A DNA stretch of 64,000 nt from NCBI RefSeq assembly GCF_027214025.1, contig NZ_JAPWHB010000006.1, forward strand, positions 186,001-250,000, read 5' to 3'. Positions 38,969 through 62,577 of this stretch are shown here, piece after piece. The notes under the pieces are model-generated. The model saw only the letters and a program-made list of their open reading frames with translations, ran no database searches and was not told the origin of the DNA. The position numbers were made by a program, and so were the translations under genes. Source of the stretch: Parahoeflea alexandrii. Its GTDB lineage: Bacteria; Pseudomonadota; Alphaproteobacteria; Rhizobiales; Rhizobiaceae. Numbering within the stretch: the stretch's first letter is position 1; each line of letters opens with the position of its first letter.

Positions 38969-39050
38969 CCGGCCGTGTGGCCGGTTTGAAGGGCGGAAAC
39001 GCCAAGTTGAAGGCAGCGGATGATCCGCTGTCGTGATCGGGAGGAAGATC

Positions 39051-40301: not shown

Positions 40302-40314
40302 CAGACGGCTACAA

Positions 40315-40342
40315 GACGGCGCCGGGGTCATCCGGCGCCGTC
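40315..40342 (+). terminator. Intercistronic hairpin after the second binding-protein gene
   Basis: GACGGCGCCGG (40315-40325), loop GGTCAT, CCGGCGCCGTC (40332-40342): perfect 11-bp stem without a U tract, 13 bases after the stop. Probably sets higher expression of the binding protein than of the permease genes. Confidence 0.65.
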
Positions 40343-40400
40343 CCTCGCTATCGGTGTTTGACCCGCATAAACTCAATCATGCGGGAAGGGGGAGACCTTC

Positions 40401-46856: not shown

Positions 46857-47705
46857 ATGGCCAAGCATTCGCCGGTAATCGGGCGTTATGTCACCATCGA
46901 AGTCGATGGCTACGAGTACAAGGTCTTCTATCTGCGCAACGGCGAGGGCATTCCGCTGGTCTGCCAGCACACCGCAGGCTGCCATAACCATCAGTGGCGC
47001 GATTTGCTCGAGGATCCGGAAATCACTGCCAATTACGACGTGATCGCCTATGACCTTGCCCGCCACGGCAAGTCCGACCCGCCGCTCAACAAGGAATGGT
47101 GGAAGGAAGAGTACCGGCTGACCGCCGAGCATTACATGAACTTCATCAATGCTTTCTGCGAAGCGCTCGAGCTCGACGATCCGATCTTCATGGGATCCTC
47201 CTTCGGCGGCAATGTCGCGCTGCAGCTGGCGCTGCACTATCCGGACCGCTACCGCGCCGTGATTCCGGTGGAAGCCGCCGAGCATGCACCCGGTTTCTTT
47301 CTCGACTGGTGGCGTCATCCCCATGCCAATGCGGCCCAGGTCTGCGCCTCAGGCGTCTGGGATTTGATGGCGCCGCAGAGCCCGGACAAGGATCGCTGGC
47401 TGACCTGGCACTACTACACGCAAGGTTCGGAAGTGTTCAAAGGCGACCTCTATTTCTATTCTGTCGACCACGATCTGCGCGGCAAGCTCGGCAACATCGA
47501 TACCAGCCGCTGCCCTGTCATCATGATGACCGGTACCTACGACTACCTGACGCCGCCGGAAGCGACCGAGGCAACCGCCCGGCAGATACCGGGCGGCATC
47601 TACATCGAAATGGAGGACATCGGCCACTTCCCGATGTCCGAAAACTATCCGCTCTTCGCCGTCTATCTGAAGGAAGCCCTCCGTCTCATCGACGAACGGA
47701 CATGA
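46857..47705 (+). CDS. Alpha/beta-fold hydrolase
   Basis: A 282-residue soluble serine hydrolase. Catalytic triad by motif: S115 in G-S-S-F-G-G, Asp in MMTGTYDYLTPPE, His in MEDIGHFPMSENY. The N-terminal GIPLVCQHTAGCHNHQWRDL contains the oxyanion region, with H-T-A in place of the common H-G. No signal peptide. It sits between the SCP2-like and BlcC-like genes and so probably opens an ester or lactone feeding the same pathway; resemblance to aliphatic-ester or haloperoxidase-like hydrolases is general only. Confidence 0.88.
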   Translation: MAKHSPVIGRYVTIEVDGYEYKVFYLRNGEGIPLVCQHTAGCHNHQWRDLLEDPEITANYDVIAYDLARHGKSDPPLNKEWWKEEYRLTAEHYMNFINAFCEALELDDPIFMGSSFGGNVALQLALHYPDRYRAVIPVEAAEHAPGFFLDWWRHPHANAAQVCASGVWDLMAPQSPDKDRWLTWHYYTQGSEVFKGDLYFYSVDHDLRGKLGNIDTSRCPVIMMTGTYDYLTPPEATEATARQIPGGIYIEMEDIGHFPMSENYPLFAVYLKEALRLIDERT

Positions 47706-47749: not shown

Positions 47750-48688
47750 ATGAAGATCATCGAATTCGACGACAAGGGACAACGCGTTGAATCGGACTCG
47801 AAATCGGTCCGCTCCGATTCGGGTACCAGCAGCCTGGCGCAGCGCCCCCGGTTCTCGATGGCCCGCGAGGAGCCGGTGCGCCGCAAGCGCGGCAACTCCT
47901 CCGGTATCGAGCTTCACATGTTCCAGACCGGAACGCTGAGAACCAAGCTCAAATACATCAAGATGAACCAGGGCGAGAGCGACTTCGAGATCCCGGTGCC
48001 GTGGTTCCTGATCAAACATCCCGCCGGGAACGTGGTGATCGACGGCGGCAACGCCGTGGAAGCCGCCATCGACAAGCGCGGTCATTGGGGAGCGGTCGTC
48101 GATGCCTATGATCCGGTGATGCAGGTTTCTGAGAACTGTGTCGACCAGCTCAAGTCGGTGGGGGTCGACCCGCATTCCGTGCGCTATGTTCTGCAGTCGC
48201 ATCTGCATCTCGATCATACCGGCGCCATCGGCCATTTCCCGAAGGCGCAGATCATCTGTCAGCGCGCCGAATACGAATATGCCTTCAAGCCGCACTGGTT
48301 CTCCGCCGGCGCCTATATCCGCGCCGACTTCGACCGGCCGGGGCTCGACTGGAAGTTCCTCGGTGGCGAGTACACCGACAATTACGATCTCTTCGGCGAC
48401 GGCGTCATCCGGATGATCTTCACGCCGGGCCATGCGCCGGGGCACCAGTCCTTCCTTGTCACGCTGCCGCGCACGGGCCCGGTGCTCCTGACCATCGATG
48501 CCGCATATACAATCGATCACTGGGAGAACAAGGCTCTGCCGGGACTCGTCCATTCGTCGGCTGATGCCGCCAATTCGGTCGCCAAGCTGCGACGCATTGC
48601 CAGCGACACCAACGCCATGGTCGTGACCGGTCACGATCCGGTCAACTGGGAGACCTTCCGCAAGGCTCCCGGCGATTTCTACGACTGA
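47750..48688 (+). CDS. blcC: BlcC/AttM-type gamma-butyrolactone (and N-acylhomoserine) lactonase with N-terminal extension
   Basis: Metallo-beta-lactamase-fold lactonase that opens gamma-butyrolactone to 4-hydroxybutyrate; relatives also open acyl-homoserine lactones. From residue about 53 the protein follows Agrobacterium AttM/BlcC closely: GTLRTKLKYIKMNQGESDFE, HPAGNVVIDGGNAVEAAIDK, the dinuclear zinc motif Q-S-H151-L-H153-L-D155-H156, FTPGHAPGHQSFLV, LLTIDAAYTIDHWENKALPG, VTGHDPVNWE. A basic, Ser/Arg-rich extension of about 52 residues precedes it, beginning M-K-I-I-E-F-D-D-K-G; a similar I-V-E-F-D-R-E-K-G occurs at the C-terminus of the ABC ATPase of this operon, supporting the start at 47750. 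Confidence 0.9.
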   Translation: MKIIEFDDKGQRVESDSKSVRSDSGTSSLAQRPRFSMAREEPVRRKRGNSSGIELHMFQTGTLRTKLKYIKMNQGESDFEIPVPWFLIKHPAGNVVIDGGNAVEAAIDKRGHWGAVVDAYDPVMQVSENCVDQLKSVGVDPHSVRYVLQSHLHLDHTGAIGHFPKAQIICQRAEYEYAFKPHWFSAGAYIRADFDRPGLDWKFLGGEYTDNYDLFGDGVIRMIFTPGHAPGHQSFLVTLPRTGPVLLTIDAAYTIDHWENKALPGLVHSSADAANSVAKLRRIASDTNAMVVTGHDPVNWETFRKAPGDFYD

Positions 48689-48816: not shown

Positions 48817-49986
48817 ATGAAGTATCTTAAATCAATGGCACTGGCCGCGGGCATGATTGCCTTCGGCGCGATCGCCGCCCAGGCCGAAGGCGTGGACGAG
48901 ATCAATCCGGACGTCGCCAAGCGTCTCTACAATCCCGAAATGCTCGATCCGTCACAGCCGGTCGGGCCGAGCCCCTTGCGCGACTTCAAGGCGAAGAACC
49001 CGCCGCCGTGGAAGATCGGCTATGCGTCGTCCTATGCCGGCAACACCTGGCGCGCCAACGCCATGGATCCGCTGCAGAACGAGATCATTCCCAAGTGGAA
49101 GGAACTCGGCCTGATCAGCGAGGTCATCGTCACGCAGTCGAACCTCAACGATTCGACGCAGATCCAGCAGATGCGCCAGCTTGTCGATCAGGGCGTTGAC
49201 GCGATCTTCGTGTGCTGCTCGAACCCGACGGCGCTGAACCAGACGGTCCAGTACGCCTATGACAAGGGTGTCCCGGTCTTCTCGATGACCGGTTACCTCA
49301 CGGCGCCGACCGCGGTGAACTCCTCGGTCAACTATCAGGTGGCCGGCTTCGAAATCGGCAAGCGCATGGCCGAGGAACTTGGCGGCGAAGGCAATGTTCT
49401 CGTTGTCGAGGGCATTCCCGGCACGTCCGGTTCGGACAGCCAGGATCGTGGCGTGAAGGCCGGTCTGGCCACAGCACCCGGCATCAAGATTGTCGGCTCG
49501 ATCGCTGGTATGTGGACCGACCAGGTGGCTCAGGGCGAAGTGCAGAAGTGGCTTGCCACTCACCCTGGCAAGCTCGACGGCATCGTCGTCCAGTCGGCGG
49601 CCGAAATGGGCGTGCTGCGTGCGCTCAAGCAGTCCGGCCGTGAAGGCGTCAAGGTTGCCGTTGGCGGCGAGCTGGGTGCGCTCTGCACCTGGCGCAAGAA
49701 CCCGGACCTGATCTCGGCCGCCGTCCAGACCTGGCCGCCCGCCGACGACATCAACCTGATCTGGCGCATCATGATGCGTACGCTTCAGGGCCAGGGTCCC
49801 AAGGTGCAGTCGGTTCTCGTCGATCCGGTGGTCATCACCTATGACGATCTGAAGGACATCGTCCCCGAGGATTGCGATGAGAACGCCCAGAACTGGTACA
49901 ATGTCGGCCAGGAGAAGTGGGGCTCGACGGAGTACCTCAACCAGTTCTTCGTCAACCCGGCAGACCCGACCCAGTACAAGCGGTAA
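48817..49986 (+). CDS. Ribose-type ABC periplasmic binding protein
   Basis: A 389-residue exported binding protein, larger than RbsB. Sec signal (KYLKSMALAAGMIAFGAIAA, cleavage after A-Q-A), then about 45 residues rich in P before the first lobe: KIGYASSYAGNTWRANAMDP, VDQGVDAIFVCCSNPTALNQ, GNVLVVEGIPGTSGSDSQDR. The ATG has GAGAGGAGA upstream. In the context of lactone-opening and hydroxyacid-oxidising enzymes its ligand may be a hydroxyacid conjugate, lactone or sugar ester. A 7-bp stem (near 48691-48707) precedes the gene and a 9-bp stem follows it. Confidence 0.92.
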   Translation: MKYLKSMALAAGMIAFGAIAAQAEGVDEINPDVAKRLYNPEMLDPSQPVGPSPLRDFKAKNPPPWKIGYASSYAGNTWRANAMDPLQNEIIPKWKELGLISEVIVTQSNLNDSTQIQQMRQLVDQGVDAIFVCCSNPTALNQTVQYAYDKGVPVFSMTGYLTAPTAVNSSVNYQVAGFEIGKRMAEELGGEGNVLVVEGIPGTSGSDSQDRGVKAGLATAPGIKIVGSIAGMWTDQVAQGEVQKWLATHPGKLDGIVVQSAAEMGVLRALKQSGREGVKVAVGGELGALCTWRKNPDLISAAVQTWPPADDINLIWRIMMRTLQGQGPKVQSVLVDPVVITYDDLKDIVPEDCDENAQNWYNVGQEKWGSTEYLNQFFVNPADPTQYKR

Positions 49987-50072: not shown

Positions 50073-51950
50073 ATGTCGACCGCAACCGCAGAAAATTCAC
50101 AGACAGCGCAGGGTCGCGAGACGATCATCGTGCGCAATGTGAAGAAGTTCTTCGGGCCGACCCGGGCGCTCGATGGCGTGAACTTCACCGCGCGCGCCGG
50201 CGAGATCCACGCGGTTGTCGGCGGAAACGGGTGCGGCAAGAGCACCATGGCCAAGGTGGTATCAGGCATCCTGCCGGTTGACGGCGGAACGGTCTCCATC
50301 CTCGGCGAAACCCCCTCGACGCCCGCGGAAAGCAAGGCCATCGGCATTTCCACGGTCTATCAGGAAGTCCTCGTCGCCGACGAGAGCACCGTGGTCGACA
50401 ACATTTTCATGGGCTCTGACGCCCTGTTTTCCAAATCCATGTCGCAGGAGCACAAGGTCGTCCGTGCCGCGGAACTGATGCGGGAACTGGCCGGAGAACC
50501 GGTCGATCCCTTTGCCATCGCCGGCACGCTGCCGCTCGGCCTCAAGCAGTGGATCACGATCGCCCGTGCGCTGGTCAGCGATCCGCGCATTCTCATCCTC
50601 GACGAAAGCTCCGCCGCGCTCGACTTCGATTCCACCGAGCGGCTGTTTGCCAAGATGCGCAGCCTGCGCGATCAGGGCACGACCATCCTGATTGTTACCC
50701 ACCGCATCGCCGAACTGATCAGGATCTCCGACCGCGCCACGGTGTTGCGCGACGGCCGCGACGTCGGCGTGCTGGAGAAGGAACAGATCACCGAGAAGAA
50801 CCTCCTGGCGCTGATGACCGGCGACGAGAATGCCGGAAAGTCACACAGCAACGAGGCGCCGCAGCCGCGTGACGGCAGCATCGCCCTGCGCGGCGAGAAG
50901 GTGACGGTGTGGGCGGATACCGAGCCGTTCGACTTCGAAATCCGGCGCGGCGAGATCGTCGGCATCGCCGGTCTCGATGGCCAGGGACAGGATGCCTTCG
51001 TCCGCGCCGTTGCCGGTGTCGAACCGGCCAGATCCGGGCTGATCCAGGTGACGGACCGCCACGGAGAATATCACGCAGTGCGCAATCTTGCCGACGCGGT
51101 GGAAGGCAAGATTTCCTATGTCTCCGGCGACCGGAAGCGCGAGGGCATCTTCGCCTCGATGTCGATCTTCGAGAACATGGTCATGCCGCTCTATCGCGAA
51201 AAGAAGCGCGCCGGCATCCTCTCGATCATCGACTGGCCGACGCTCGGGACCATTTTCAAGCGCGAGGCTGACAATCTTCTCATCAAGTTCGGCATGCGCG
51301 AGGACCGCATCACCTCGCTGTCGGGCGGCAACCAGCAGAAAGTGCTGATTGGCCGCGGTTTCGCGATGCGGCCCGACGTCATCGTTCTCAACGATCCCGC
51401 GCGCGGCATCGACGTCGGCGCCAAGACCGAACTCTACAAGCATCTGCGGACATTTGCCGGCGAGGGCAAGTCGGTGGTCTACATGTCCTCTGAACTCGAG
51501 GAATTCATCGGCTTTGCCACCCGGGTGATCGTCTTCCGCGACGGCAAGCCCTTCGATGCCTTCGACGGCCGCTCGCTCGATCCGAAACGGGTGCTGGAAG
51601 CCATGTTCGGCCAGACCGACGGCAGCGGGCTGGAAAGCGCCTGGGGGCTGAAGCCCGTTACCGGCACTTCCTCCGCGCAAGGCGAGCCGCGCGGCGCCAG
51701 AACCGAAAGCGATGGCGTCAAGGTTGCCGTCGAGGTGCCGAAAGACATCCGCGAGGCAATGGAGCGGCGCAACCGCGCGGCCGCTATCGCTCGTGCGACA
51801 GACGTCGCGGAGACCGAACGGCCTGTTGCCGCTCACCGGAAGGACTCGCGGCCCGCGGTGCCGTCGATGCCGAAATCGATCCGCATTGTGGAGTTCGACC
51901 GTGAAAAGGGCGAGGCGCGGGAGATCGGGCAGGGGGGCGGCGGACGATGA
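50073..51950 (+). CDS. Ribose-type double-NBD ABC ATPase with degenerate motifs and long tail
   Basis: A 625-residue ATPase, about 120 longer than RbsA. NBD1 has a good Walker A (GGNGCGKSTMAK) and Walker B (ILILDESSAAL), but the signature is L-P-L-G-L-K-Q instead of L-S-x-G-x-x-Q. NBD2 has the usual degenerate Walker A (GLDGQGQDAF), an intact LSGGNQQKVLIG, but Walker B V-L-N-D-P-A-R-G-I-D lacks the catalytic Glu. After residue about 510 a tail rich in A, R and E (VPKDIREAMERRNRAAAIA) ends with S-I-R-I-V-E-F-D-R-E-K-G. ATG 50073 is chosen as the start of the conserved domain. The stop overlaps the permease start (ATGA). Confidence 0.92.
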   Translation: MSTATAENSQTAQGRETIIVRNVKKFFGPTRALDGVNFTARAGEIHAVVGGNGCGKSTMAKVVSGILPVDGGTVSILGETPSTPAESKAIGISTVYQEVLVADESTVVDNIFMGSDALFSKSMSQEHKVVRAAELMRELAGEPVDPFAIAGTLPLGLKQWITIARALVSDPRILILDESSAALDFDSTERLFAKMRSLRDQGTTILIVTHRIAELIRISDRATVLRDGRDVGVLEKEQITEKNLLALMTGDENAGKSHSNEAPQPRDGSIALRGEKVTVWADTEPFDFEIRRGEIVGIAGLDGQGQDAFVRAVAGVEPARSGLIQVTDRHGEYHAVRNLADAVEGKISYVSGDRKREGIFASMSIFENMVMPLYREKKRAGILSIIDWPTLGTIFKREADNLLIKFGMREDRITSLSGGNQQKVLIGRGFAMRPDVIVLNDPARGIDVGAKTELYKHLRTFAGEGKSVVYMSSELEEFIGFATRVIVFRDGKPFDAFDGRSLDPKRVLEAMFGQTDGSGLESAWGLKPVTGTSSAQGEPRGARTESDGVKVAVEVPKDIREAMERRNRAAAIARATDVAETERPVAAHRKDSRPAVPSMPKSIRIVEFDREKGEAREIGQGGGGR

Positions 51951-53377
51951 GCGATGCAGCCACCAATGCCGGTCTCGATACCGCCCGCCCGGGACAGGGC
52001 GGTCGTGCGAACCCGTTCCTTCTCGTTCCGATCACGCTGTTCTTCCTGCTGCTCGGGCTCGCCGTCCTGCGCTCGCCCAGCCTGATGTCGAGCGCCGGCA
52101 TCGGCAGCGCCATCATCGTGGCGACGCCGCTGATCCTCGCCACCTACGCGCTGATGGCTTCGGTGATGTCCGGCCGCGGCACGGTGGATCTCTCGATCGG
52201 TCCGCTGATTGGGTTCATCAACGTGACGCTGATCCAGCTCCATGGCGCCGGCATCCTCACCAATCCGATCGCCATTTTCGCCTATGCGATCCTCATCGGC
52301 GCTCTCTACCAGTTCCTGTTCTCGCTGATCGTGATCTATGTCCGCGTGCAGCCGATCATCGTCTCGCTGTCGGGCTACCTGGCCTTGTCGGGGATGAATC
52401 TTGTCATCCTGCCGCGGCCGGGCGGCGTGGCGCCGCAGTTCATGGCCGACTGGGGCCTTGGAACCTCGATCTTCTCGCCGGTCTTCGCCATTCTGGTAAT
52501 CGCTTCCATTGCCTGGTTGCTGTTCACCCGGACCGCCTTCTACACGCATCTCCGCCTGATGGGATCGGACGAGCGCGCGGCCTACACCAGCGGCGTGCCG
52601 ATCTATATCGTGCGCACCGGTGCGCATCTGATTTCGGGTGCTTTCGCCGGACTGGCGGCGATTACCTTCACTGCACTGATCTCGTCGGGGGACCCTTCGC
52701 AGGGCACGACCTACACATTGATCGCGGTTACCGCGCTGGTTCTCGGTGGAGCCTCGCTTGCCGGTGGACGCGGCGGCGTGTTCGGCTCCTTCCTGGGAGC
52801 GAGCAACCTCTACCTGATCACCTTCGTGCTGGCGACGTTCAACTTCGGCGCGGTGCAGAGTTTTGTGACCAATCTCGCCTACGGTTCGATCCTGGTGATC
52901 TCGCTGTTGCTGACGCTGATCATCCCCTTCATCCAGCGCCACATCCACAACTTCTCGCCGGTTCTTTACTTTGTCGTTCTTGGCGCGGTTGCGATGGGCG
53001 TGATCCTGCACGCCACCAATGACCGCGACCCGCGGGCGCGTTCGGTACCGGCGGAGGAAGTGGTCGTGATGCAGCCGCTCGAACCGATCGCGTCCGAAAC
53101 ACTCTATGTCGCACCACTCGAAGTGGGTGTTGCCGATGCTGCGGATCGGCAATTGAGCGCCGAGGCCGGCCCGCTGGTGCTTTCGGCGCTGCTGCTGATC
53201 GTGATTGCGGTCTTCGTCCGCGTCGCTGTCAGCCAGTCCGACCGCAAGACGATTGCGCCGGCCGTGGTCGTGGTCATCGCGGCGCTGGTGCTTCTCGGCG
53301 CCTATCTGATGCGCGCCCAGGGTCCGCTCGCGCCCGCAGCAGTCAGCAGTCCAAGCGATACGGAGGAGAGCCAGTGA
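51947..53377 (+). CDS. Ribose-type ABC permease with extra C-terminal membrane domain
   Basis: A 476-residue permease. The core (to about residue 335) is RbsC-like: MSGRGTVDLSIGPLIGFINV, VRVQPIIVSLSGYLALSGMN, LVLGGASLAGGRGGVFGSFL. Unlike ordinary 320-340-residue permeases it goes on for about 140 residues with further helices (LYFVVLGAVAMGVILHAT, LVLSALLLIVIAVFVRVAV, APAVVVVIAALVLLGAYLM) separated by a hydrophilic loop. ATGA overlaps on both sides show tight coupling with the ATPase and the second permease. Confidence 0.9.
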   Translation: MSDAATNAGLDTARPGQGGRANPFLLVPITLFFLLLGLAVLRSPSLMSSAGIGSAIIVATPLILATYALMASVMSGRGTVDLSIGPLIGFINVTLIQLHGAGILTNPIAIFAYAILIGALYQFLFSLIVIYVRVQPIIVSLSGYLALSGMNLVILPRPGGVAPQFMADWGLGTSIFSPVFAILVIASIAWLLFTRTAFYTHLRLMGSDERAAYTSGVPIYIVRTGAHLISGAFAGLAAITFTALISSGDPSQGTTYTLIAVTALVLGGASLAGGRGGVFGSFLGASNLYLITFVLATFNFGAVQSFVTNLAYGSILVISLLLTLIIPFIQRHIHNFSPVLYFVVLGAVAMGVILHATNDRDPRARSVPAEEVVVMQPLEPIASETLYVAPLEVGVADAADRQLSAEAGPLVLSALLLIVIAVFVRVAVSQSDRKTIAPAVVVVIAALVLLGAYLMRAQGPLAPAAVSSPSDTEESQ

Positions 53378-54747
53378 CCATGCTCGCCGAACCGCCGAAA
53401 CTTGGATTGCCTGCCACGATCATCGGACTTGCCGTCGGGGTCATTCTTACCGCCATCGGTGTTGTCTTCGGCTTCCTCCAGGGGCTTTCGATCCAGCTGA
53501 TCATCCTCTCGGCAATTGCCACACTTGCCGCCTTCGTCTGGGGATGGCGCTTTGTGCTTGGCCAGTTCGTGTCGGACACGCCGGCGCGGGCGGAAGGCGA
53601 GATCGGCGAAGGCCGGAAGACCTGGCAGCAGTTCCGTCCGGCAATCTACGGGCTGATCGCGATCCTGGCGCTGTTCCTGGTTCTGTCGCTGACAATTGAG
53701 GGGTTCTTCAACGTCTGGAACATCGTCTCGTTGCTGATCATCCTGACCATCATCGTTCTCACCCGGACGCTTGGCCGACACTTTCAGGAAAACCGGTCGG
53801 CCTTCATCGGCATCATGGTTCTGTGCGGCTTGTTCTCGATCGGCTCGATGAACATTGAAGGTTTTGCCTCGGCCAACAACATCAAGTCCATGCTGCTGTT
53901 TGCGGCCTTCCTCGGGATAGCTTCCGTCGGACAGACGCTGGTGGCGCTGCTCGGCGGGCTTGACCTGTCGATCCCCTTCATTATCGGCGCCGCCAATGTC
54001 GGGCTTCTCTATCTCATCAGCCTTGGCGTACCGCCCTGGCTTGCCACCCTCATCGTGCTCGGCATCGGCGCCCTGCTTGGCGTGATCAACGGTTTGCTGA
54101 GTTACCGGCTGCAGGGACAGGCGCTGATCGTCACGTTGGGGACGGGGTTTGCCATCTCCGGCGGGGTGCAGATCGTCACTTCAATCGGCACCGCCTATGG
54201 CGGCAATGTCTTCGGAACGGTGCCGGACTGGCTGTCCAATCTGGCTGCCATGAACGGCTCGACCTTTGGCCTGCCGGTTCCGCCGGTGATCGTCATCTGG
54301 GGTCTGATCGTCATCGTGCTGATCGCTGGCATGCGGTTGACGGTCTATGGACGTTATCTTTACGCGCTCGGGGTCAACCGGACCTCGGCCAAGCGGGTTA
54401 TGATCTCCGAGCTCACCTATTGGGTGATGATGTACGCGATCTCCGGGTTTTTCGCGGCGTTGACCGGCAGTCTGCTGCTCGGCTGGTCTGGCGGAGGTTT
54501 CATCGGAGTTGGTGACCAGTACCTCTTTCTTACGCTGGCGGCTGTCGTGGTCGGCGGGACATCGCTTCTGGGCGGTCAGGGCGGCTACGGGTTTACCGTC
54601 ATCGGCGTCTTGGTGCTGCAGGTCCTGTCCTCCTTTCTCATCGGCATCGGCCTCGATTTCGAATGGCAACAATTCATTTTCGGTCTGCTGATCCTGCCCA
54701 TGGTGGCGCTGTATGCGCGCTCGCCGCACATCAGGACGCAAATCTAG
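53374..54747 (+). CDS. Ribose-type ABC permease with extra N-terminal membrane domain
   Basis: A 457-residue permease. The first 70 residues carry two extra helices (GLPATIIGLAVGVILTAIGV, QLIILSAIATLAAFVWGW) and a charged linker before the RbsC-like core: LFLVLSLTIEGFFNVWNIVS, ALLGGLDLSIPFIIGAANVG, VVVGGTSLLGGQGGYGFTVI. The extension mirrors the C-terminal extension of its partner, so the two may pack together. Last gene of the ABC set; the opsin-like gene follows at 63 bases on the same strand. Confidence 0.9.
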   Translation: MTMLAEPPKLGLPATIIGLAVGVILTAIGVVFGFLQGLSIQLIILSAIATLAAFVWGWRFVLGQFVSDTPARAEGEIGEGRKTWQQFRPAIYGLIAILALFLVLSLTIEGFFNVWNIVSLLIILTIIVLTRTLGRHFQENRSAFIGIMVLCGLFSIGSMNIEGFASANNIKSMLLFAAFLGIASVGQTLVALLGGLDLSIPFIIGAANVGLLYLISLGVPPWLATLIVLGIGALLGVINGLLSYRLQGQALIVTLGTGFAISGGVQIVTSIGTAYGGNVFGTVPDWLSNLAAMNGSTFGLPVPPVIVIWGLIVIVLIAGMRLTVYGRYLYALGVNRTSAKRVMISELTYWVMMYAISGFFAALTGSLLLGWSGGGFIGVGDQYLFLTLAAVVVGGTSLLGGQGGYGFTVIGVLVLQVLSSFLIGIGLDFEWQQFIFGLLILPMVALYARSPHIRTQI

Positions 54748-54810: not shown

Positions 54811-55512
54811 ATGGCGGTGTTCCAAACAGCTGATCTGACAGCGGCGAGCTATTCCACAGCCCTGCTGGGACTGGTTGCGACAAGCGTGCTGCTTCTGCTT
54901 GGCACAAGTTGGGTGAAAAACGGCTGGAAACTGCCGGTGACACTCTGCGCGCTGGCTGCCCTTGTCGGTGTCGGCGCGGTCTATGAGGCGCGCGAGGCCT
55001 GGGCAGTCAAACAGTCGGTTCCGGTGGTCTATCATTATGTCGGCTGGGCGATCTCTATGCCATTGCAGGTGCTGGCGCTGTTCTTCTTCGCCAGCCTGTT
55101 CGGCAAGCTCGGCATGGGGCTGTTCTGGCGGCTCGTCGTGGTGTCGATCCTGATGGTCTTTGTCCGGTATCTTGGCGAGGCGGGCTTCATGCATGCGACA
55201 CTCGCCTTCCTGATCGGGCTCGTCTTCTGGCTCTACATTCTCGGTGAACTGTTCTTCGGCCAGATGGACGAGGCGGTGCGCGGCTCGCTCAACGAACCGG
55301 TTCAGCACGGCTATTTCTGGCTTCGGCTGATCGTCACCATCGGCTGGGCGATCTATCCTTTGGGCAACTTCATCACCTCATTCGGCGGCTATGTCGACGA
55401 CGGGGCCCTGTCGGTTGCCTACAATATTGCAGATTTTCTCAACCGGATGGCATTCGGCGTCGCGGTGCTCGCGACCGCCATGCTCGACAGCGAGGCAAAG
55501 CGGCATGACTGA
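54811..55512 (+). CDS. Microbial-rhodopsin homologue lacking the retinal-binding lysine
   Basis: A 233-residue, seven-helix membrane protein clearly related to proteorhodopsin. Helix C: V-Y74-H75-Y-V-G78-W-A-I-S82-M-P-L-Q86; helix D/E region: RYLGEAGFMHATLAFLIGLV and WLYILGELFFG; helix F: T-I-G-W-A-I-Y-P-L-G-N-F; helix G: A-Y-N-I-A-D208-F-L-N211-R212-M-A-F-G. Proteorhodopsin has Y-N-L-A-D-F-V-N-K at this place, so the Schiff-base Lys is Arg212 (codon CGG). The pump residues are also gone: the helix-C Arg is His75, proton acceptor Asp is Gly78, Thr is Ser82, donor Glu is Ala89. It cannot hold retinal in the normal way and is not a light-driven pump. Start ATG 54811 has GGAGAG upstream. A flotillin gene follows at 69 bases. 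A structural, ligand-sensing or transport-partner role is inferred. Confidence 0.88.
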   Translation: MAVFQTADLTAASYSTALLGLVATSVLLLLGTSWVKNGWKLPVTLCALAALVGVGAVYEAREAWAVKQSVPVVYHYVGWAISMPLQVLALFFFASLFGKLGMGLFWRLVVVSILMVFVRYLGEAGFMHATLAFLIGLVFWLYILGELFFGQMDEAVRGSLNEPVQHGYFWLRLIVTIGWAIYPLGNFITSFGGYVDDGALSVAYNIADFLNRMAFGVAVLATAMLDSEAKRHD

Positions 55513-55581: not shown

Positions 55582-57288
55582 ATGAAGGGTGCAGATTTCA
55601 TTGCCATCATCATTCTGGCGGCGATCGTCATCGCCGTCTGCGCCTATCTGTTGCATTGGCTCTATCGCCGTTCGACGAAGGACATCTCCTTCGTGCGCAC
55701 AGGCTTTGGTGGCGAGAAGGTGGTCATGGGCGGCGGCGCCTTTGTGTTGCCGATCCTGCATGACATCACCGAGGTGAACATGAATACCCTGCGGCTGGAG
55801 ATCCTCCGGGCCCGGGAAAAATCCCTGATTACCAAGGACCGGATGCGTGTCGAGTTGACCGTCGAGTTTTATGTCCGGGTTCAGCCCAATGATGAAGCGG
55901 TGGCGACAGCCGCCCGGTCGCTCGGCAACCGCACCATGCATGCCGAGCAGCTCAAGGATCTCATCCAGGGCCGGTTTGTCGACGCGATGGGCGGTGCGGC
56001 TGCAACGATGACCCTGGAGCAAATCCACGAACACCGTCAGGATTTCGTCAAGGAAGTCCGCAAGGAGGTGGCGGACAGTCTGGCGCTCGATGGCCTTGAG
56101 CTTGAATCGGTGTCGCTGACATCGCTGGATCAGACCGACATTTCGCTGTTCAACCCATCCAACACCTTCGATGCGGAGGGTCTGACGATCCTCACGGAAC
56201 AGATCGAGAGCCGCAAGAAAAAACGCAACGACATCGAAAAGGACACGATGATTGCGGTACGGGTGAAAAACCTGGAAGCCGAAAAGCGCTCGCTCGAGAT
56301 CCAGCGCGATACCGAATATGCGAAGTTGTCGCACGAGGCGGAAGTCGCCATCCAGCGTGCCCAGCGCAAGGCCGAGATCGCCAATGAGAACGCCACACGC
56401 GAACGCGAGATCGAGATCATCAAGCTGAAAGAGCGTGAATCCGTCGAGCGCGCGCGCATCGAGATGGAGCAGGAGATCGAGCGCATCGACATCAAGCGCA
56501 AGGAAGCCCTGCAGATCGAAGAGCAGATCCGCGAGATCGCCGTAGCCGGAAAATCGAAGGAGCGTTCGGAAGCCCAGGCTGTCGCCGAGGGCGCCCGCGC
56601 CAAGATGATCGAGGCGCAGGAGAAGGTCCAGACCATCCGCGACACCGAGATCGCCACACGCCAGAAGGCCATCGAGTTGCTCGAAGCCCAGAAGGTCGCA
56701 GAGGCCGAGGGGGCGCGCACCCGGATCCTGGCAGAGGCCGAGAAGGACGCGGCGCAGGATCGCGCCGATGCCGACAGGATAGCGGTTGCGGCTCTGGCTG
56801 AACGTTACAAGGTCGAGGCCGAGGGCAAGCAAAAGCTCAACGAGGCCGAGAACATCCGCTCCGACGCCAGCCGTCGCAGCGGTCTGCACAAGGCGCTGGT
56901 CGAGAACCTGCCGGCAATCATCCGCGAAAGCGTCAAGCCGATGGAGAAGATCGAAGGCATCAAGATCCTGCATGTCGACGGCATGCCGGGATTCTCCGGC
57001 GGTGGCTTCTCGTCAGGTCCGGGCGGCGATGGCGACGGGGCAGGCCCACGGGATGGAAACCTGGCCGACCAGGTGGTTTCTTCGGCGCTGAGGTACCGTT
57101 CGCAGGCACCTTTCGTTGACCAGCTTCTTGGCGAGATCGGCATGAGCGCGGACAATGTGCATCGCACACACACGCTCCAGGATCTCTCCAAGATCGTCTA
57201 CAGCGAACCGAACGCTCCGGACACGAAACCCGCCAAGGGCACGTCTGCGGGCAAAGGTAAGTCGGCCGGCAAATCACCGGCGGAATAA
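55582..57288 (+). CDS. Flotillin-like SPFH protein (YqiK type)
   Basis: A 568-residue membrane-microdomain scaffold. One N-terminal helix (FIAIIILAAIVIAVCAYLLHW), an SPFH domain (FVRTGFGGEKVVMGGGAFVL through LTVEFYVRVQPNDEAVATAA, about residues 30-215), a long coiled coil rich in E, A, R and K (about 220-445: RAQRKAEIANENATREREIE), then a C-terminal region with a Gly-rich stretch (GMPGFSGGGFSSGPGGDGDG) and a basic tail (KGTSAGKGKSAGKSPAE). Flotillins form oligomeric lipid domains that gather membrane proteins. Lying between the opsin-like gene and the symporter genes, it may organise these proteins. Confidence 0.93.
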   Translation: MKGADFIAIIILAAIVIAVCAYLLHWLYRRSTKDISFVRTGFGGEKVVMGGGAFVLPILHDITEVNMNTLRLEILRAREKSLITKDRMRVELTVEFYVRVQPNDEAVATAARSLGNRTMHAEQLKDLIQGRFVDAMGGAAATMTLEQIHEHRQDFVKEVRKEVADSLALDGLELESVSLTSLDQTDISLFNPSNTFDAEGLTILTEQIESRKKKRNDIEKDTMIAVRVKNLEAEKRSLEIQRDTEYAKLSHEAEVAIQRAQRKAEIANENATREREIEIIKLKERESVERARIEMEQEIERIDIKRKEALQIEEQIREIAVAGKSKERSEAQAVAEGARAKMIEAQEKVQTIRDTEIATRQKAIELLEAQKVAEAEGARTRILAEAEKDAAQDRADADRIAVAALAERYKVEAEGKQKLNEAENIRSDASRRSGLHKALVENLPAIIRESVKPMEKIEGIKILHVDGMPGFSGGGFSSGPGGDGDGAGPRDGNLADQVVSSALRYRSQAPFVDQLLGEIGMSADNVHRTHTLQDLSKIVYSEPNAPDTKPAKGTSAGKGKSAGKSPAE

Positions 57289-57346: not shown

Positions 57347-57772
57347 ATGTCCAAGCCAGCGATGGTCGAGCGCGACCTGCTTGTCTTCTCGATCTGGGCG
57401 GTGCTCGGCTTTGGGGGACTGGCCCTGCTAGTGGAAGGTTTCTCGCGGGATTCCTATGTCATCTCGCTTGCGGCGACACTCACGATCATTTTGGGTTTCA
57501 TCGCCCACATCGTGGTCAATGCCGTGTTTGATTGCGGCTTCAAGCCCGGCGAGACGGCGCTCGGCATCTCGGCTTTCGGTGCTGTGGCCCTCGCTTTCAT
57601 CATCGGTTGGGCTATGGGTGGCTTGTCGGCGGCTGATTACTGGTCGGGATTGACGCTGCTGGCGGCGCTCGGCTTCGGACTGCCGATCTACCTTTCCACC
57701 CGCTACGGCATGAGGGGCGCTTTCTCGAGTTTCCATGTCCGGCATGTAGACGATGGAAAGCCCGGGGCATGA
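57347..57772 (+). CDS. Four-helix membrane protein preceding the symporter, unknown family
   Basis: A 141-residue protein with four predicted transmembrane helices (LLVFSIWAVLGFGGLALLVE, VISLAATLTIILGFIAHIVV, GISAFGAVALAFIIGWAMGG, LTLLAALGFGLPIYLSTRYG) and a short hydrophilic C-terminus. The stop overlaps the symporter ATG (ATGA). Small membrane proteins (DUF485, DUF4212) precede sodium:solute symporters in other bacteria; position fits such a partner but I see no sequence match. It could also serve the flotillin, since flotillin genes are often next to small membrane proteins. Confidence 0.75.
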   Translation: MSKPAMVERDLLVFSIWAVLGFGGLALLVEGFSRDSYVISLAATLTIILGFIAHIVVNAVFDCGFKPGETALGISAFGAVALAFIIGWAMGGLSAADYWSGLTLLAALGFGLPIYLSTRYGMRGAFSSFHVRHVDDGKPGA

Positions 57773-59718
57773 CAGGCATGGCGTATTCGGTCTGGCTCCC
57801 GCTCTTCGCGCTCTTCTATGTCGCGGTGATGCTCTACTGGGTGCGTGTGGCAGCCAGCGAGACCGGGGCGGACGACGGTTTCTTTTCCGCCGGCCATGCA
57901 CTCGCCCCCTGGATAACTGCGCTGGTCATCGGCGGCGCCAGTATGAGCAGTTGGTTCGTGCTCGGTGGCAGTCAGCAGATCGTCGCCCAGGGTTTCCAGA
58001 TGCCTGCATTGATCGTCGGCGGCGTGCTTCTGGCCTTGCCCGGAACACTGTTCTTCAAGCGGCTCTGGTTCGTGGCCGAACGGATGCGGGTTTCTTCGCA
58101 GGCCGACATATTCCGTGTCTATTATGGCAGCCCGTTCCTCGTCACGGCCTCGGTAACGGTCGCGCTTCTGTTTGCGATCGGGTTCTGCGGATTGCAGATC
58201 CGGGCGATTTCCGACCTGACCGAGCTGATGACCGGCGGGGCGGTATCCAGATTCACCGCCAGCGTGGTGCTTGGCTTCGTCCTGTTTGCGGGGGCCGGGA
58301 TCGGCGGCATGCGCGCGATTGGATATTTCGGCGTTGTCCAGACGGTTCTCGCCTTTGCCGGCATCGTGGCGTTGTCCGGTTTCGCACTGATCTGGAGCGG
58401 TGGTTTCGCGGCGCTCAATGCGGGCCTCCTCCAATTGTCGGCGATTGAGGGGTCAGCCGGGCTGTTCACCGTCAATGGCGTCATCCACTTTACATCCGGT
58501 CTCGGCCGCGGCGGGGAGCTGGCGGACGCCAATACCGCGCTCGCCAATCTCAGCTTCGCCTTCGCGCTTATGGGCTTCCAGGCCAGCCCGCTCATCATCA
58601 AGCTTGTCCTCTCTACCCGCAGCCCCAACGGCATCGCGGCGGGGCAGACATGGGTGACAGCCGGTTTCTTCGGCGCAGTCATAGCCTTCTGTATCGCACT
58701 CACCGGGGCCGCAGGCCTCGTTGACCGCGACCTCGCGCTTGACGGTTTGCTATCGGCACTGCAGACCGGTTCGCCCTGGTTTGCCGCATGGATCTTCATC
58801 GGGATCGCCGCCGGTGTGCAACTGTTGGCGGGTCTGGCGCTCTTTGTCGCCGGCGAAGGCCTGGTGAGGCACATTTACCGGCCCTATTTCAATTCGCGCC
58901 TGAGCAAGCATGGCGCTGTGACGTTGACCCGCATCATCATTGCGGTTCTAGCGGCGGTTGCCATGTTGATGGAGAACCTGGCTCCGGTCGCGCTGTCGGC
59001 GCTGTCGGCGCTTGCCTTGCCGATGGCCTTTCAACTCTGGACTCCGCTTCTGGGGGTGACGTGGCTGTCCTGGATCACCCGTCCGGCGGCGGCTGCCGGC
59101 GTCGGATTCGGCCTCGCCGGCGTGTTGCTTACCGAGCCGCTCGGATACCAGGTCTTGTCATTCTTCGGTCTGGAACTTCCCTGGGGCCGCTGGCCCTGGA
59201 CGATTCATTCGGCGCTCTGGGGCATGGCCGCCAACGTAGCGGCTGTCCTGATCATCTCCGCGATCACCAACCGCAATGCGCTGGGCACCGAAGCGCGCGA
59301 AATCCGCCGGCTCTTTTCCGGCCTGCTTTCGACGTCGGGCAAGGCGCAGAAATTACGGTCCACCGCCTGGTCGGTGACGCTCGCCTGGTTCTTCCTTGCC
59401 GTCGGCCCGGGACTGATCTTTGGCAATTCCGCCTTTGTAGCGACGGGCGAAAGCGGGCCGATCTGGCTTCTCGGCATGCCCTCGCTCTGGGCCTGGTCAC
59501 TCGCCGCCTGGGTCTCAGGTCTCGGACTGATCTGGTTTCTCTCCTACAAGATGGAAATGGCGAGCCCCCTCCATGTCACCATTCCACCTTACGAGCCACC
59601 GTTGCGGCTGAAGAAGGACACGTCCGCCGAGGAGCAGGAGCGGCTGCGCGTTCTCATTCTCACGGGCGCTGTCGGCTTTGCGCTGGCGGTGCTGATCGCA
59701 TTCAGTTTCGGGGGCTGA
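57769..59718 (+). CDS. Sodium:solute symporter (SSS) family transporter
   Basis: A 649-residue transporter with about 13-15 helices. SSS features include the N-terminal FFSAGHALAPWITALVIGGA (the G-R-x-x-x-x-W type motif), GASMSSWFVLGGSQQIVAQG, SQADIFRVYYGSPFLVTASV and a central GFQASPLIIKLVLSTRSPNG. Length is above the usual 480-550, with about 100 extra C-terminal residues including two helices. Substrates of the family include monocarboxylates, so 4-hydroxybutyrate or a related acid is a reasonable guess from the downstream dehydrogenases. Overlaps the four-helix gene; Fe-ADH follows at 25 bases. Confidence 0.88.
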   Translation: MTGMAYSVWLPLFALFYVAVMLYWVRVAASETGADDGFFSAGHALAPWITALVIGGASMSSWFVLGGSQQIVAQGFQMPALIVGGVLLALPGTLFFKRLWFVAERMRVSSQADIFRVYYGSPFLVTASVTVALLFAIGFCGLQIRAISDLTELMTGGAVSRFTASVVLGFVLFAGAGIGGMRAIGYFGVVQTVLAFAGIVALSGFALIWSGGFAALNAGLLQLSAIEGSAGLFTVNGVIHFTSGLGRGGELADANTALANLSFAFALMGFQASPLIIKLVLSTRSPNGIAAGQTWVTAGFFGAVIAFCIALTGAAGLVDRDLALDGLLSALQTGSPWFAAWIFIGIAAGVQLLAGLALFVAGEGLVRHIYRPYFNSRLSKHGAVTLTRIIIAVLAAVAMLMENLAPVALSALSALALPMAFQLWTPLLGVTWLSWITRPAAAAGVGFGLAGVLLTEPLGYQVLSFFGLELPWGRWPWTIHSALWGMAANVAAVLIISAITNRNALGTEAREIRRLFSGLLSTSGKAQKLRSTAWSVTLAWFFLAVGPGLIFGNSAFVATGESGPIWLLGMPSLWAWSLAAWVSGLGLIWFLSYKMEMASPLHVTIPPYEPPLRLKKDTSAEEQERLRVLILTGAVGFALAVLIAFSFGG

Positions 59719-59743: not shown

Positions 59744-60901
59744 ATGAATCCATTCACCTTCAACACCTCGAAGTCGATCCAGTTCGGCGCTGGCGCCCTC
59801 GACAGGATCGGCGATCTGGTCAAGGCGCAGATCGGCGAGCGGGTGATGCTCGTCACCGACCCCGGCATGATGTCGACCGGCATCGTCGACCGTGCGCTGC
59901 AGATTCTCGCCTCGGCGGGGATTTCGGTGGAACTGTTCAAGGATGTCGAGGCCGATCCGCCGGAATCTGTCATCCTGAAAGCGGTCGAGCAGGCCAAGGC
60001 TGCTGATATCGCCGGGGTTATCGGTCTGGGCGGCGGGTCTTCGCTGGATGTTGCCAAGCTGGTGTCGCTTCTGGCGCTCGGCAGGGAAAGCATCAAGGAT
60101 GTCTACGGTGTCGGAAATGCCAAGGGGCCGCGTCTGCCGCTCATCCTGGTGCCGACAACGTCCGGCACCGGATCCGAAGTCACGCCGATATCTATCGTTA
60201 CGACCGGAACCAACGAGAAAATGGGCGTGGTCTCGCCGGTGATCCTGCCCGATATCGCGCTTCTCGATCCGGAACTCACCTACGGGCTGCCGGCCCATGT
60301 GACGGCAGCAACCGGCATCGACGCCATGGTGCATGCCATCGAGGCCTATGCGTCGGCGAGCGCCAACAACAATCCGCTTTCGCGCATGCTGGCCACCCAG
60401 GCGCTGACGCTGATGGGGCGATCGATCCTTAGGGCGGTGCATGAGGGGTCGGACACCGAAGCGCGGTCGGACATGCTGCTCGGCTCCATGCTCGCCGGGC
60501 AGGCCTTCGCCAATTCCCCGGTGGCGGCCGTCCATGCGCTCGCCTATCCGCTGGGCGGGCATTTCCATATCCCGCATGGTTTGTCGAACGCGCTGGTTCT
60601 GCCGCATGTGCTGCGCTTCAACATCGTCACGTCGCCGCAACCCTATGCCGAACTGGCCCCTTACGCCTTTCCGGAACTGTCGAAATTCGAGGGTCAGGAG
60701 CGCGCGGCCGCTTTCTGCGAGAAGCTTGCGGAGCTCTCGCGCGACTGCGGCCTTCAGCCCAATCTGCGGGCGATGAACATTCCCGAGGACATTCTCCCCA
60801 AACTAGCATCGGATGCGATGAACCAGACCCGGCTTCTGGTCAACAATCCCCGCCCGGTGACCGAAGCAGACGCATTGGCAATCTACCGCGCCGCCTACTG
60901 A
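59744..60901 (+). CDS. Iron-containing alcohol dehydrogenase (probable 4-hydroxybutyrate dehydrogenase, BlcB role)
   Basis: A 385-residue group-III dehydrogenase. NAD-binding G-G-G-S-S-L-D-V-A-K, then VPTTSGTGSEVTPISIVTTG; metal ligands in G-I-D-A-M-V-H-A-I-E-A-Y and in HALAYPLGGHFHIPHGLSNA. In the Agrobacterium blc operon BlcB of this family oxidises 4-hydroxybutyrate to succinate semialdehyde. Here it is directly followed (26 bases) by a succinate-semialdehyde dehydrogenase and shares an operon with a BlcC-like lactonase, so the same reaction is inferred; sequence alone does not fix the alcohol. Confidence 0.9.
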   Translation: MNPFTFNTSKSIQFGAGALDRIGDLVKAQIGERVMLVTDPGMMSTGIVDRALQILASAGISVELFKDVEADPPESVILKAVEQAKAADIAGVIGLGGGSSLDVAKLVSLLALGRESIKDVYGVGNAKGPRLPLILVPTTSGTGSEVTPISIVTTGTNEKMGVVSPVILPDIALLDPELTYGLPAHVTAATGIDAMVHAIEAYASASANNNPLSRMLATQALTLMGRSILRAVHEGSDTEARSDMLLGSMLAGQAFANSPVAAVHALAYPLGGHFHIPHGLSNALVLPHVLRFNIVTSPQPYAELAPYAFPELSKFEGQERAAAFCEKLAELSRDCGLQPNLRAMNIPEDILPKLASDAMNQTRLLVNNPRPVTEADALAIYRAAY

Positions 60902-60927: not shown

Positions 60928-62379
60928 ATGACACTCAACCTGTCCGATCCGTCCCTGCTCGAAACCCGCGGTCTTCTCGGCGGGGAGTGGGTCTCGGGAT
61001 CGAAGACCTTCGCGGTCACCAATCCGGCGACCGGCGAGACAATCGCCGATGTCGCGGACCTGACCGCAGAGGACACCAGGAAGGCGATCGACATTGCCTA
61101 TGAGGCGCAGAAGGCCTGGCGGGCGAAGATTGCCAAGGAGCGCTGCGCGATCTTGCTCAAGTGGAACGACCTGATGCTGGAAAATCAGGACGATCTGGGC
61201 AAGATCCTGACCGCCGAGATGGGCAAGCCGCTGGCCGAGGCCAAGGGCGAGATCGCCTATGGCGCGTCGTTCATCCAGTGGTTTGCCGAGGAAGGCCGCC
61301 GCGTCTATGGCGATGTCATCCCCGGCCATCAGGCCGACAAGCGTATCGTTGTCATCAAGCAGCCGATCGGTGTCGTCGCCTCGATCACGCCATGGAACTT
61401 CCCCAACGCCATGATTGCCCGCAAGGTGGCGCCAGCGCTCGCCTCGGGGTGCACCTTCGTGGCGCGGCCGGCCAAGGAAACGCCCCTTTCGGCCATCGCC
61501 ATGGCGGTGCTCGGCGAGCGCGCCGGCATCCCCAAGGGGGTCCTGTCGATGATCCCGGGCACCGATTCCAAGGGTATCGGCGGCGAGATGTGCTCGAACC
61601 CGAAAGTGCGCAAGCTCACCTTCACCGGTTCGACCGAAGTGGGCCGCATCCTGATGAAACAGTGCGCCCACGACATCAAGAAACTGTCGCTGGAACTCGG
61701 CGGCAACGCCCCGTTCCTCGTCTTCGACGATGCCGATCTCGACAAGGCGGTCGAGGGAGCGATGATCGCCAAATACCGCAATTCAGGCCAGACCTGCGTT
61801 TGCGCCAATCGCATCTTCGTCCAAAGCGGCGTGGCCGCCGCCTTCGCCGAGAAGCTCGCTGCCGCCACCGCGAAGCTCAAGGTCGGAGACGGCATGGACG
61901 ATGGTGTTCAGATCGGCCCGCTGATCGACGCGGCGGGACTCGAGAAGGTCGAGGATCACGTCCAGGATGCGGTCAGCAAGGGAGCCAAGGTGATTGTCGG
62001 CGGCAAGCGCTCGGACCTGGGCGGCACCTTCTTCCAGCCAACTGTGCTGACCGGGGTGGCCAAGGGGATGAAGGTTCTCTCTGAAGAGACTTTCGGACCG
62101 GTGGCGCCGATCATCACCTTCGACACGATCGACGAGGGCATCGCGCTCGCCAATGACACCGAGTTCGGTCTCGCCGCCTATTTCTACGCGCGCGATATCT
62201 CCACCGTCTGGAAGGTGGCGGAAGAGATCGAAAGCGGCATGGTCGGCATCAACACCGGTCTGGTTTCGACCGCCGAGGCGCCGTTTGGCGGCATCAAGTC
62301 CTCCGGTCTCGGACGCGAGGGCTCGAAATACGGCATCGAGGACTTCCTTGAGATCAAGTATCTCTGCATGAGTGTCTGA
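60928..62379 (+). CDS. gabD: Succinate-semialdehyde dehydrogenase (BlcA role)
   Basis: A 483-residue aldehyde dehydrogenase that fits the GabD group: LLGGEWVSGSKTFAVTNPAT, KPLAEAKGEIAYGASFIQWF, GVVASITPWNFPNAMIARKV, FTGSTEVGRILM, catalytic Glu in L-E-L-G-G-N-A-P, nucleophilic Cys in N-S-G-Q-T-C-V-C-A-N-R, and EAPFGGIKSSGLGREGSKYG. Oxidises succinate semialdehyde to succinate, linking the pathway to the TCA cycle. Last gene of the 46,406-62,379 operon. The 197 bases to the IS element hold no gene and no obvious terminator. Confidence 0.93.
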   Translation: MTLNLSDPSLLETRGLLGGEWVSGSKTFAVTNPATGETIADVADLTAEDTRKAIDIAYEAQKAWRAKIAKERCAILLKWNDLMLENQDDLGKILTAEMGKPLAEAKGEIAYGASFIQWFAEEGRRVYGDVIPGHQADKRIVVIKQPIGVVASITPWNFPNAMIARKVAPALASGCTFVARPAKETPLSAIAMAVLGERAGIPKGVLSMIPGTDSKGIGGEMCSNPKVRKLTFTGSTEVGRILMKQCAHDIKKLSLELGGNAPFLVFDDADLDKAVEGAMIAKYRNSGQTCVCANRIFVQSGVAAAFAEKLAAATAKLKVGDGMDDGVQIGPLIDAAGLEKVEDHVQDAVSKGAKVIVGGKRSDLGGTFFQPTVLTGVAKGMKVLSEETFGPVAPIITFDTIDEGIALANDTEFGLAAYFYARDISTVWKVAEEIESGMVGINTGLVSTAEAPFGGIKSSGLGREGSKYGIEDFLEIKYLCMSV

Positions 62380-62577
62380 TGGTTAAAGGCTGCCCGAAGC
62401 GGTTAAGTTGCATATTTGGGATATGGTTGAGAAAGAGCCGTTTCGGATACGTTGACAGAAGGCTGCTGCCAGAGTGTGGAGTTGTTCAGCAAGCGTTATC
62501 GTGGCGCTTGAGAAAGACGTGGCCCGGGGAAACGGTATAGCAGGGGGTAAATGGAGTTTCTGCCCGAATTTGGCTTA

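Follow-up and report, generated by a model that had tools for sequence, protein, structure and literature searches.

Gene organization of the locus

The window, the 64,000-nucleotide stretch of the Parahoeflea alexandrii genome that was analyzed, carries an opsin gene among genes for transport and catabolism. Its genes and features are collected in Table 1. The gene order runs from an IclR-type regulator through an alpha/beta hydrolase, a lactonase, an ABC importer (binding protein, ATPase, permeases 1 and 2), the opsin, a flotillin, a 141-amino acid protein and an SSF symporter to two dehydrogenases. The lactonase scores 431.9 bits against the NCBIfam AttM model NF045700 (cut-off 390) in a match that begins at residue 53, and the succinate-semialdehyde dehydrogenase (SSADH) scores 715.8 bits against an SSADH subfamily cut-off of 646.35. 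The iron-containing alcohol dehydrogenase (Fe-ADH) is below the cut-off in all 17 models listed. Judged by gene content, the operon likely serves lactone catabolism. The Agrobacterium attKLM/blcABC operon for gamma-butyrolactone has a lactonase, an alcohol dehydrogenase, an SSADH and an IclR-type regulator, and the window has the same four. In contrast to attKLM/blcABC, the window has the importer, opsin, flotillin and symporter between the lactonase and the dehydrogenases, and its lactonase carries an N-terminal tag. A branched-chain amino acid type ABC importer lies upstream of the IclR gene (39033-44096), and a DDE-type transposase piece directly follows the SSADH gene (62575-63063, minus strand).

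Table 1. Features of the opsin locus (positions in the window; FAR, flotillin-associated rhodopsin).
Feature	Position	Strand	Remarks
IclR-type regulator, divergent	45427..46248	-	
Alpha/beta hydrolase	46857..47705	+	same fold in the other 3 FAR clusters scanned (L094, L098, L142)
AttM-type lactonase, 53-aa N-terminal extension	47750..48688	+	
N-terminal tag MKIIEFD of lactonase	47750..47770	+	
Periplasmic substrate-binding protein (Peripla_BP_4)	48817..49986	+	
ABC ATPase, variable C-terminal extension	50073..51950	+	
C-terminal tag IRIVEFD of ATPase	51879..51899	+	
ABC permease 1, extra C-terminal stretch after residue ~325	51947..53377	+	
ABC permease 2, extra N-terminal membrane module, residues 1 to ~135	53374..54747	+	
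Lysine-less FArhodopsin (opsin-like 7TM protein)	54811..55512	+	233 aa, ATG start
Glu59 codon, candidate Arg212 partner	54985..54987	+	alignment
Arg119 codon, PsFAR Glu120 position	55165..55167	+	alignment
Arg212 codon CGG at retinal-lysine position	55444..55446	+	Arg in 32/32 Arg-subclade sequences
Flotillin (SPFH + Flot domains)	55582..57288	+	
141-aa membrane protein, 3 hydrophobic segments, no Pfam family	57347..57772	+	
SSF-type sodium:solute symporter	57769..59718	+	
Fe-ADH (putatively AttL-like)	59744..60901	+	
SSADH (putatively AttK-like)	60928..62379	+	

An opsin fold is maintained without the retinal lysine

The opsin reading frame reads as an earlier note on this DNA described it, and its product matches PF01036 with an E value of 6e-21 (75 bits, cut-off 24.6). 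The note had reported the loss of the retinal lysine and of the pump residues. This was confirmed by alignment with 33 proteorhodopsins, where H75, G78, S82, A89 and R212 stand in place of Arg, Asp, Thr, Glu and Lys, a comparison in which only the Arg, Thr and Glu count as free observations because the 33 were selected by script for K212, D78, N205 and G150. The Schiff-base Lys, the Asp acceptor and the Glu donor of the proton pump are all replaced (R212, G78 and A89). Codon 212 is CGG, so a Lys would need two base changes and, as the note had argued, one sequencing error does not account for the Arg. Position 212 is Arg in all 32 sequences of the Arg subclade and Lys in none. This conservation and the purifying selection described below rule out chance or an artefact at this position.

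An AlphaFold2 model computed from a 16-sequence alignment shows seven long helices plus one short helix (pLDDT 81.9, pTM 0.81). Its best PDB matches are the PsFAR structures 9r23 and 9r21 with a TM score of 0.91, and PsFAR is also the top PDB match by sequence. The median dN/dS of the opsin is 0.12, from the 48 of 91 pairs at 14 loci with dS < 1.2. Values for the neighbors are 0.10 (flotillin), 0.12 (lactonase) and 0.22 (symporter). The opsin is under purifying selection, and relaxed selection was not seen. These data bear out the view that the gene is not decaying, and they support the description of a maintained opsin fold, without a chromophore link, inside a catabolic operon.

The opsin is a lysine-less flotillin-associated rhodopsin

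FArhodopsins (flotillin-associated rhodopsins) were published in 2023 (Haro-Moreno et al., PMC10308929). According to that paper, lysine-less freshwater members have Gln, Thr, Leu or Arg at the lysine site, and the retinal pocket is proposed to be reduced or absent. A scan of one genome per species yielded 16 loci at 68-94% identity. PF01036 matches were present in 23 of 297 same-family genomes, which alignment divides into 16 of Arg type, 4 of Leu type and 3 with ordinary Lys rhodopsins. Searches of the order (24/297 genomes positive) and the phylum (9/398) gave further matches, some of which are outside the FAR type. The tree was built with 70 rows out of 88 sequences, with a midpoint root for drawing. 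A FAR clade of 37 rows (support 100/98) stands among the proteorhodopsins and holds Lys-, Arg- and Leu-type rows, all flotillin-linked, including a HIMB59-like second rhodopsin. The lysine-less clade within it has 33 rows (100/100). The Arg subclade (26 rows, 100/95) and the Leu subclade (7 rows, 100/100) each sit on a single branch, and the whole tree has two changes of state at the lysine position. The tree program warned of long branches that come together at the Leu group.

The flotillin gene adjoins the opsin on the same strand at 33/33 Arg-type, 8/8 Leu-type and 7/7 Lys-type loci, and the membrane translocator, sodium symporter and Fe-ADH of the published clusters are all present in the window. 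Marine FArhodopsins have a second, pumping rhodopsin and a streamlined genome, whereas the window belongs to a 5.5 Mb genome whose one PF01036 match is the window opsin. The second rhodopsin marks the marine group only, since it is untestable for the freshwater members in PMC10308929, and the missing lysine is not decisive because that paper includes lysine-less members. The window opsin is a lysine-less FArhodopsin in a mostly Hyphomicrobiales branch. The hosts have genomes of 3-7 Mb and are mostly Hyphomicrobiales, with one MAG titled Roseovarius, and some of the loci are on plasmids. Named isolates among them include Hoeflea sp. IMCC20628, Martelella sp. AD-3 and Rhizobium terricola S-51. 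Genome G671 has a second rhodopsin on a very long branch (L095:10261-11010) with Arg-Thr-Ala-Thr at the helix-C positions.

Conservation of the gene cluster

Among 33 Arg-type loci, a set in which one locus appears twice (L009 and L073) and two stop at contig ends (L017 and L147), permease 2, opsin, flotillin, the 141-amino acid protein and the symporter were present in 33/33 and permease 1 in 32/33. The binding protein, ATPase and AttM-type lactonase were found in 31/33 each, two loci being cut by contig ends. Fe-ADH (25/33) and SSADH (18/33) were less frequent in a count that scores locus ends as absence. The eight Leu-type loci all have flotillin, permease 2, ATPase, the 141-amino acid protein and the symporter, seven have permease 1 and the binding protein, and none has the lactonase or Fe-ADH. 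At the seven Lys-type loci, two of them HIMB59-like, flotillin was present in 7/7, the permeases, ATPase and symporter in 6/7, the binding protein in 5/7 and a metallo-beta-lactamase-fold gene (32-72% identity) in 6/7. The 141-amino acid protein and Fe-ADH were each found in 0/7. The counts for all three types include near-identical species. The substrate must therefore differ between subclades. Permease 2, opsin and flotillin are contiguous on one strand at 33/33 Arg-type and 8/8 Leu-type loci. Opsin and flotillin are adjacent at 7/7 Lys-type loci, and permease 2 adjoins the opsin in the six that contain it. At the Leu-type locus L142 the ABC ATPase carries a fused PEBP domain (PF01161; L142:14838-17024, minus strand), and the ends of four other Leu-type ATPases are similar to it.

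The flotillin and a permease module accompany the opsin

Flotillins of 78-100% identity to the window protein were found in 16 of the 297 family genomes, precisely those 16 that have an Arg-type opsin. The idea that this cognate flotillin is a general one was rejected, as the six next-best flotillin loci have neither opsin nor permease; the sole trace at them is one ATPase match of 27% (L185). The window's own genome holds further flotillin-like genes at G000:C10:509845-510852 (50% identity) and G000:C2:57701-59161 (31%).

A search for permease 2 across 257 family genomes (E <= 1e-70, no more than six candidates scored in any one genome) gave 27 places. The alignment starts at residue 1-17 in the 20 opsin-adjacent places (16 Arg, 4 Leu) and at residue 136-139 in the other seven, one of which comes from a genome that has an opsin at another place (G178). 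These opsin-less relatives lack the permease 2 N-terminal module in 7/7 cases. Their loci, where neither opsin nor flotillin was found, also have a shorter permease 1 (323-330 residues), which lacks the extra C-terminal stretch, and ATPase matches that end at residue 516-523. An SSADH-like neighbor (33-61% identity) is present at six of the seven, three of which are near-identical. At five Lys-type loci the permease 2 alignment begins at residue 17-47, which means that most of the N-terminal module, if not all of it, is present. The permease 1 frames of these five loci have 735-796 residues, two of them (L098, L100) look unreliable, and they align to the window's only up to residue 362-400. 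The permease 1 C-terminal stretch aligns outside the Arg subclade only to residue 355-424 and thus may not be one module. These alignments indicate that the permease 2 N-terminal module goes with the opsin and flotillin; the extensions of permease 1 and the ATPase appear clearly tied to the opsin only in lysine-less loci.

The lactonase and the importer ATPase share a heptapeptide

The lactonase begins with MKIIEFD followed by a variable linker, and 17 solved relatives match it from residue 54 at the earliest. The ATPase ends in a variable linker, IRIVEFD and approximately 16 further residues. The consensus of the tag is [IM]-[KR]-[IV]-[IVL]-E-F-[DENG]. It was present in 29/29 lactonases and 29/29 ATPases of the Arg-type loci examined, and pairwise column identity was 0.89 in the tag compared to 0.40 in the linker for the lactonase and 0.83 compared to 0.22 for the ATPase. 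Differences in the lactonase extension fall mostly at third codon positions (20/34 and 20/33), in keeping with its translation. The PLSDB annotation of attM in Hoeflea sp. IMCC20628 (L210, NZ_CP011481.1 13461-14231) begins downstream of the conserved tag, and the annotated start codon is probably misplaced. A model of the lactonase from AlphaFold was too poor to judge the tag (pLDDT 48.8).

A degenerate DNA pattern of the tag had two matches in the window's own genome, both within the operon. Over 10 genomes there were 16 matches, 15 of them inside the cluster by coordinates, compared to 0 for a reversed control pattern; the one off-cluster match (G121) is at the start of a protein that is quinone-oxidoreductase-like by sequence. 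A stricter regular expression, which detects the ATPase tag and misses the lactonase tag because of its initial Met, matched once in the 12 window proteins, compared to 0.028 matches per shuffle, and not at all in 72,756 residues of open frames at the seven opsin-less loci. A relaxed expression gave two internal matches in 120,903 residues of ten other loci and two further internal matches within FAR loci (L013, L138). A chance origin of the tag was rejected on the shuffle and control-locus counts.

In the scan of five Lys-type loci, the ATPases of L093, L098 and L141 carry the motif at the end; the L094 locus is cut, and L100 ends in a variant. The motif also stands at the end of a biotin carboxylase (L093, L094), a hydantoinase B and a 231-residue protein (L141), often paired. 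Lys-type clusters also encode a protein of 110-111 residues that consists of five IKIVEFD-like copies with short linkers (L098:5688-6020, L100:5190-5525 and L099:14453-14788), and no Pfam family was found for the L098 copy. The tag was found in 0/5 Leu-type loci scanned. The Leu subclade has opsin, flotillin and the extended permease 2, which means that not every opsin locus needs the tag.

Proposed function of the opsin

The reading that we prefer, and to which we give an even chance, is that the opsin is a retinal-free membrane subunit of a flotillin-based transport and catabolism complex (metabolon). Flotillin would organize a membrane patch containing the ABC importer, and the extra membrane stretches of both permeases could be the docking sites. 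The opsin, which like the related proteorhodopsins is probably oligomeric, would pack against the permeases and may stabilize or gate the importer. The shared heptapeptide would keep the lactonase and the importer ATPase at the flotillin patch. An incoming lactone or ester, the presumed substrate, would then be opened and oxidized on entry by the alpha/beta hydrolase, lactonase, Fe-ADH and SSADH. Physical docking of opsin, permeases and flotillin is what we infer, and the opsin and flotillin might also work as a pair, independently of the importer.

We propose more tentatively, as a view that may well prove wrong, that FAR clusters in general encode a tag-assembled metabolon. A beta-strand-like heptapeptide at the ends of proteins would bring soluble enzymes, together with the ABC ATPase, onto a platform of flotillin, where a former light-driven pump, now a transport subunit free of retinal, would dock on the permease modules. 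The recruited enzymes would be the lactonase here and hydantoinase B, biotin carboxylase and the five-repeat linker protein in the Lys-bearing relatives.

The former retinal pocket and alternative functions

R212, R119, G78 and S82 are invariant in the 32 Arg-type sequences, E59 is kept in 31/32 and H75 and N186 in 30/32 each. R119 is invariant in the eight Leu-type sequences too, which gives Arg in 40/40 lysine-less sequences at a position that is Gly in 33/33 proteorhodopsins and Ala, Gly or Glu in seven Lys-type FARs. Position 59 is Tyr in 33/33 proteorhodopsins. Trp79, Trp179, Tyr182 and Pro183 of the pocket are kept, whereas Arg119, Asn186, Glu59 and Arg212 are new and conserved. We take position 119 to lie on the retinal-pocket wall by equivalence to bacteriorhodopsin Gly122. 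Position 59 presumably corresponds to bacteriorhodopsin Tyr57, near the Schiff base, which makes a Glu59-Arg212 bridge plausible. In an ungapped alignment the window's Arg119 pairs with PsFAR Glu120 and its Met83 with PsFAR His84; these are the two residues altered by the authors of structure 9r23, titled as the variant H84V/E120G. Most likely, the opsin fold no longer binds retinal.

The main rival to the metabolon subunit is ligand sensing, and the two may overlap. The opsin would be a chemoreceptor that signals to the importer or flotillin. Its old pocket would hold the operon substrate, the corresponding hydroxy acid or a fatty acid, and Arg212 and Arg119 would contact the carboxylate. The kept aromatic and proline residues and the four new, conserved ones are consistent with such a pocket. 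In a retinal-free proteoopsin the lysine is described as binding decanoate by a salt bridge (8cnk; PMC11322631), and non-light sensing has been proposed for other lysine-less opsins (Becker 2016, PMC4915679). One Leu-type locus (L142) has a sensor histidine kinase gene on the opposite strand, separated from the importer genes by approximately 340 bases. However, Glu59 may neutralize Arg212, Arg119 may fill the pocket, and the window genes scanned near the opsin include no transducer gene, of the HAMP/MCP kind or other. We consider a chemoreceptor rather unlikely. The earlier suggestion of a non-light function is supported as probable.

Retinal supply bears on the next alternative, a cryptic photoreceptor in which retinal or some other chromophore would be bound noncovalently. 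Blh (PF15461) was found in 0/31 lysine-less genomes (16 Arg and 4 Leu from the family, 7 Arg and 4 Leu from the order), a few of which are 74-88% complete. It was also found in 0/5 Lys-type FAR genomes where a second rhodopsin was not found, and it is present in 13 of the 16 remaining genomes with Lys rhodopsins. An RPE65-type oxygenase was detected in 0/3 genomes tried. Matches to the lycopene cyclase family PF05834 were short and unspecific, and 10/14 control genomes match it as well. Retinal could be environmental, and the aromatic pocket residues are partly kept, but these searches and the Arg in 40/40 sequences at the position of PsFAR Glu120, which the structure authors changed to Gly (9r23 title), leave a photoreceptor very improbable. 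The small genomes G315 and G447, where Blh was not found, carry divergent Lys-bearing rhodopsins (L096, L097).

Another possibility, put forward for marine FArhodopsins, is that the opsin assists a proteorhodopsin proton pump of the same cell when light is dim; marine FAR genomes are described as always having a second rhodopsin that pumps (PMC10308929). In the family, the 16 Arg-type genomes have one PF01036 match apiece and no Blh, which argues against this idea. For these 16 genomes we reject it as having hardly any likelihood, barring a rhodopsin that escapes PF01036 or the assembly. Decay of a proteorhodopsin gene would explain the loss of every pump residue, but a dN/dS like that of most neighbors and the 1:1 co-occurrence with the cognate flotillin rule it out, and its chance is virtually nil.

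Relation to known systems

The earlier note took the links to flotillin and to lactone catabolism to be undescribed. The first claim was wrong, because the flotillin link is published for FArhodopsins including lysine-less members (PMC10308929), and PsFAR structures exist. The second stands in part: the kind of cluster is known, and a lactonase link was found in no paper. Our search of open-licence papers found none that joins rhodopsin, flotillin and lactonase, or a lysine-less rhodopsin and flotillin in Rhizobiales. The main text of PMC10308929 is without "Rhizobi-", "lactonase" and "ABC transporter", and its Tables S2 and S4 may list homologues of the importer and the lactonase. Like the window opsin, the FArhodopsins of that paper belong to the same proteorhodopsin-family clade, have flotillin as the next gene and a translocator, sodium symporter and Fe-ADH nearby, and most freshwater members have lost the Lys. 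The window type differs in its larger genomes, in having Arg119 at the pocket position and, in the same-family genomes, in having no second rhodopsin. The main text of the paper names only an inner membrane translocator, whereas the window has a whole ABC importer and a lactonase. The opsin type is thus already known, and the signs of a tag-assembled membrane complex look unreported, in a literature search that covered the rhodopsin-flotillin-lactonase link.

These FArhodopsins are in genomes without a detected Blh or other rhodopsin, and the hosts include named isolates, so a light-independent role is testable. Concrete candidate partners are provided by the importer modules together with the shared tag, and they point to a bacterial route for a flotillin-based membrane metabolon.

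Two other groups of lysine-less opsins resemble the window protein. Haloarchaeal ORPs (Becker et al. 2016, PMC4915679) have also lost the Lys (Arg in group A, Leu or another hydrophobic residue in group B), have altered pocket residues and include hosts without retinal synthesis. They are described as branching with haloarchaeal sensory opsins, and many adjoin HAMP/MCP transducers, whereas the window opsin is in the proteorhodopsin/FAR clade, in a tree built without ORP rows, and lies with transport genes. Rh-noK of betaproteobacteria, as described in PMC10308929, is likewise a lysine-less bacterial rhodopsin, but it is xanthorhodopsin-related and stands in tandem with a proteorhodopsin.
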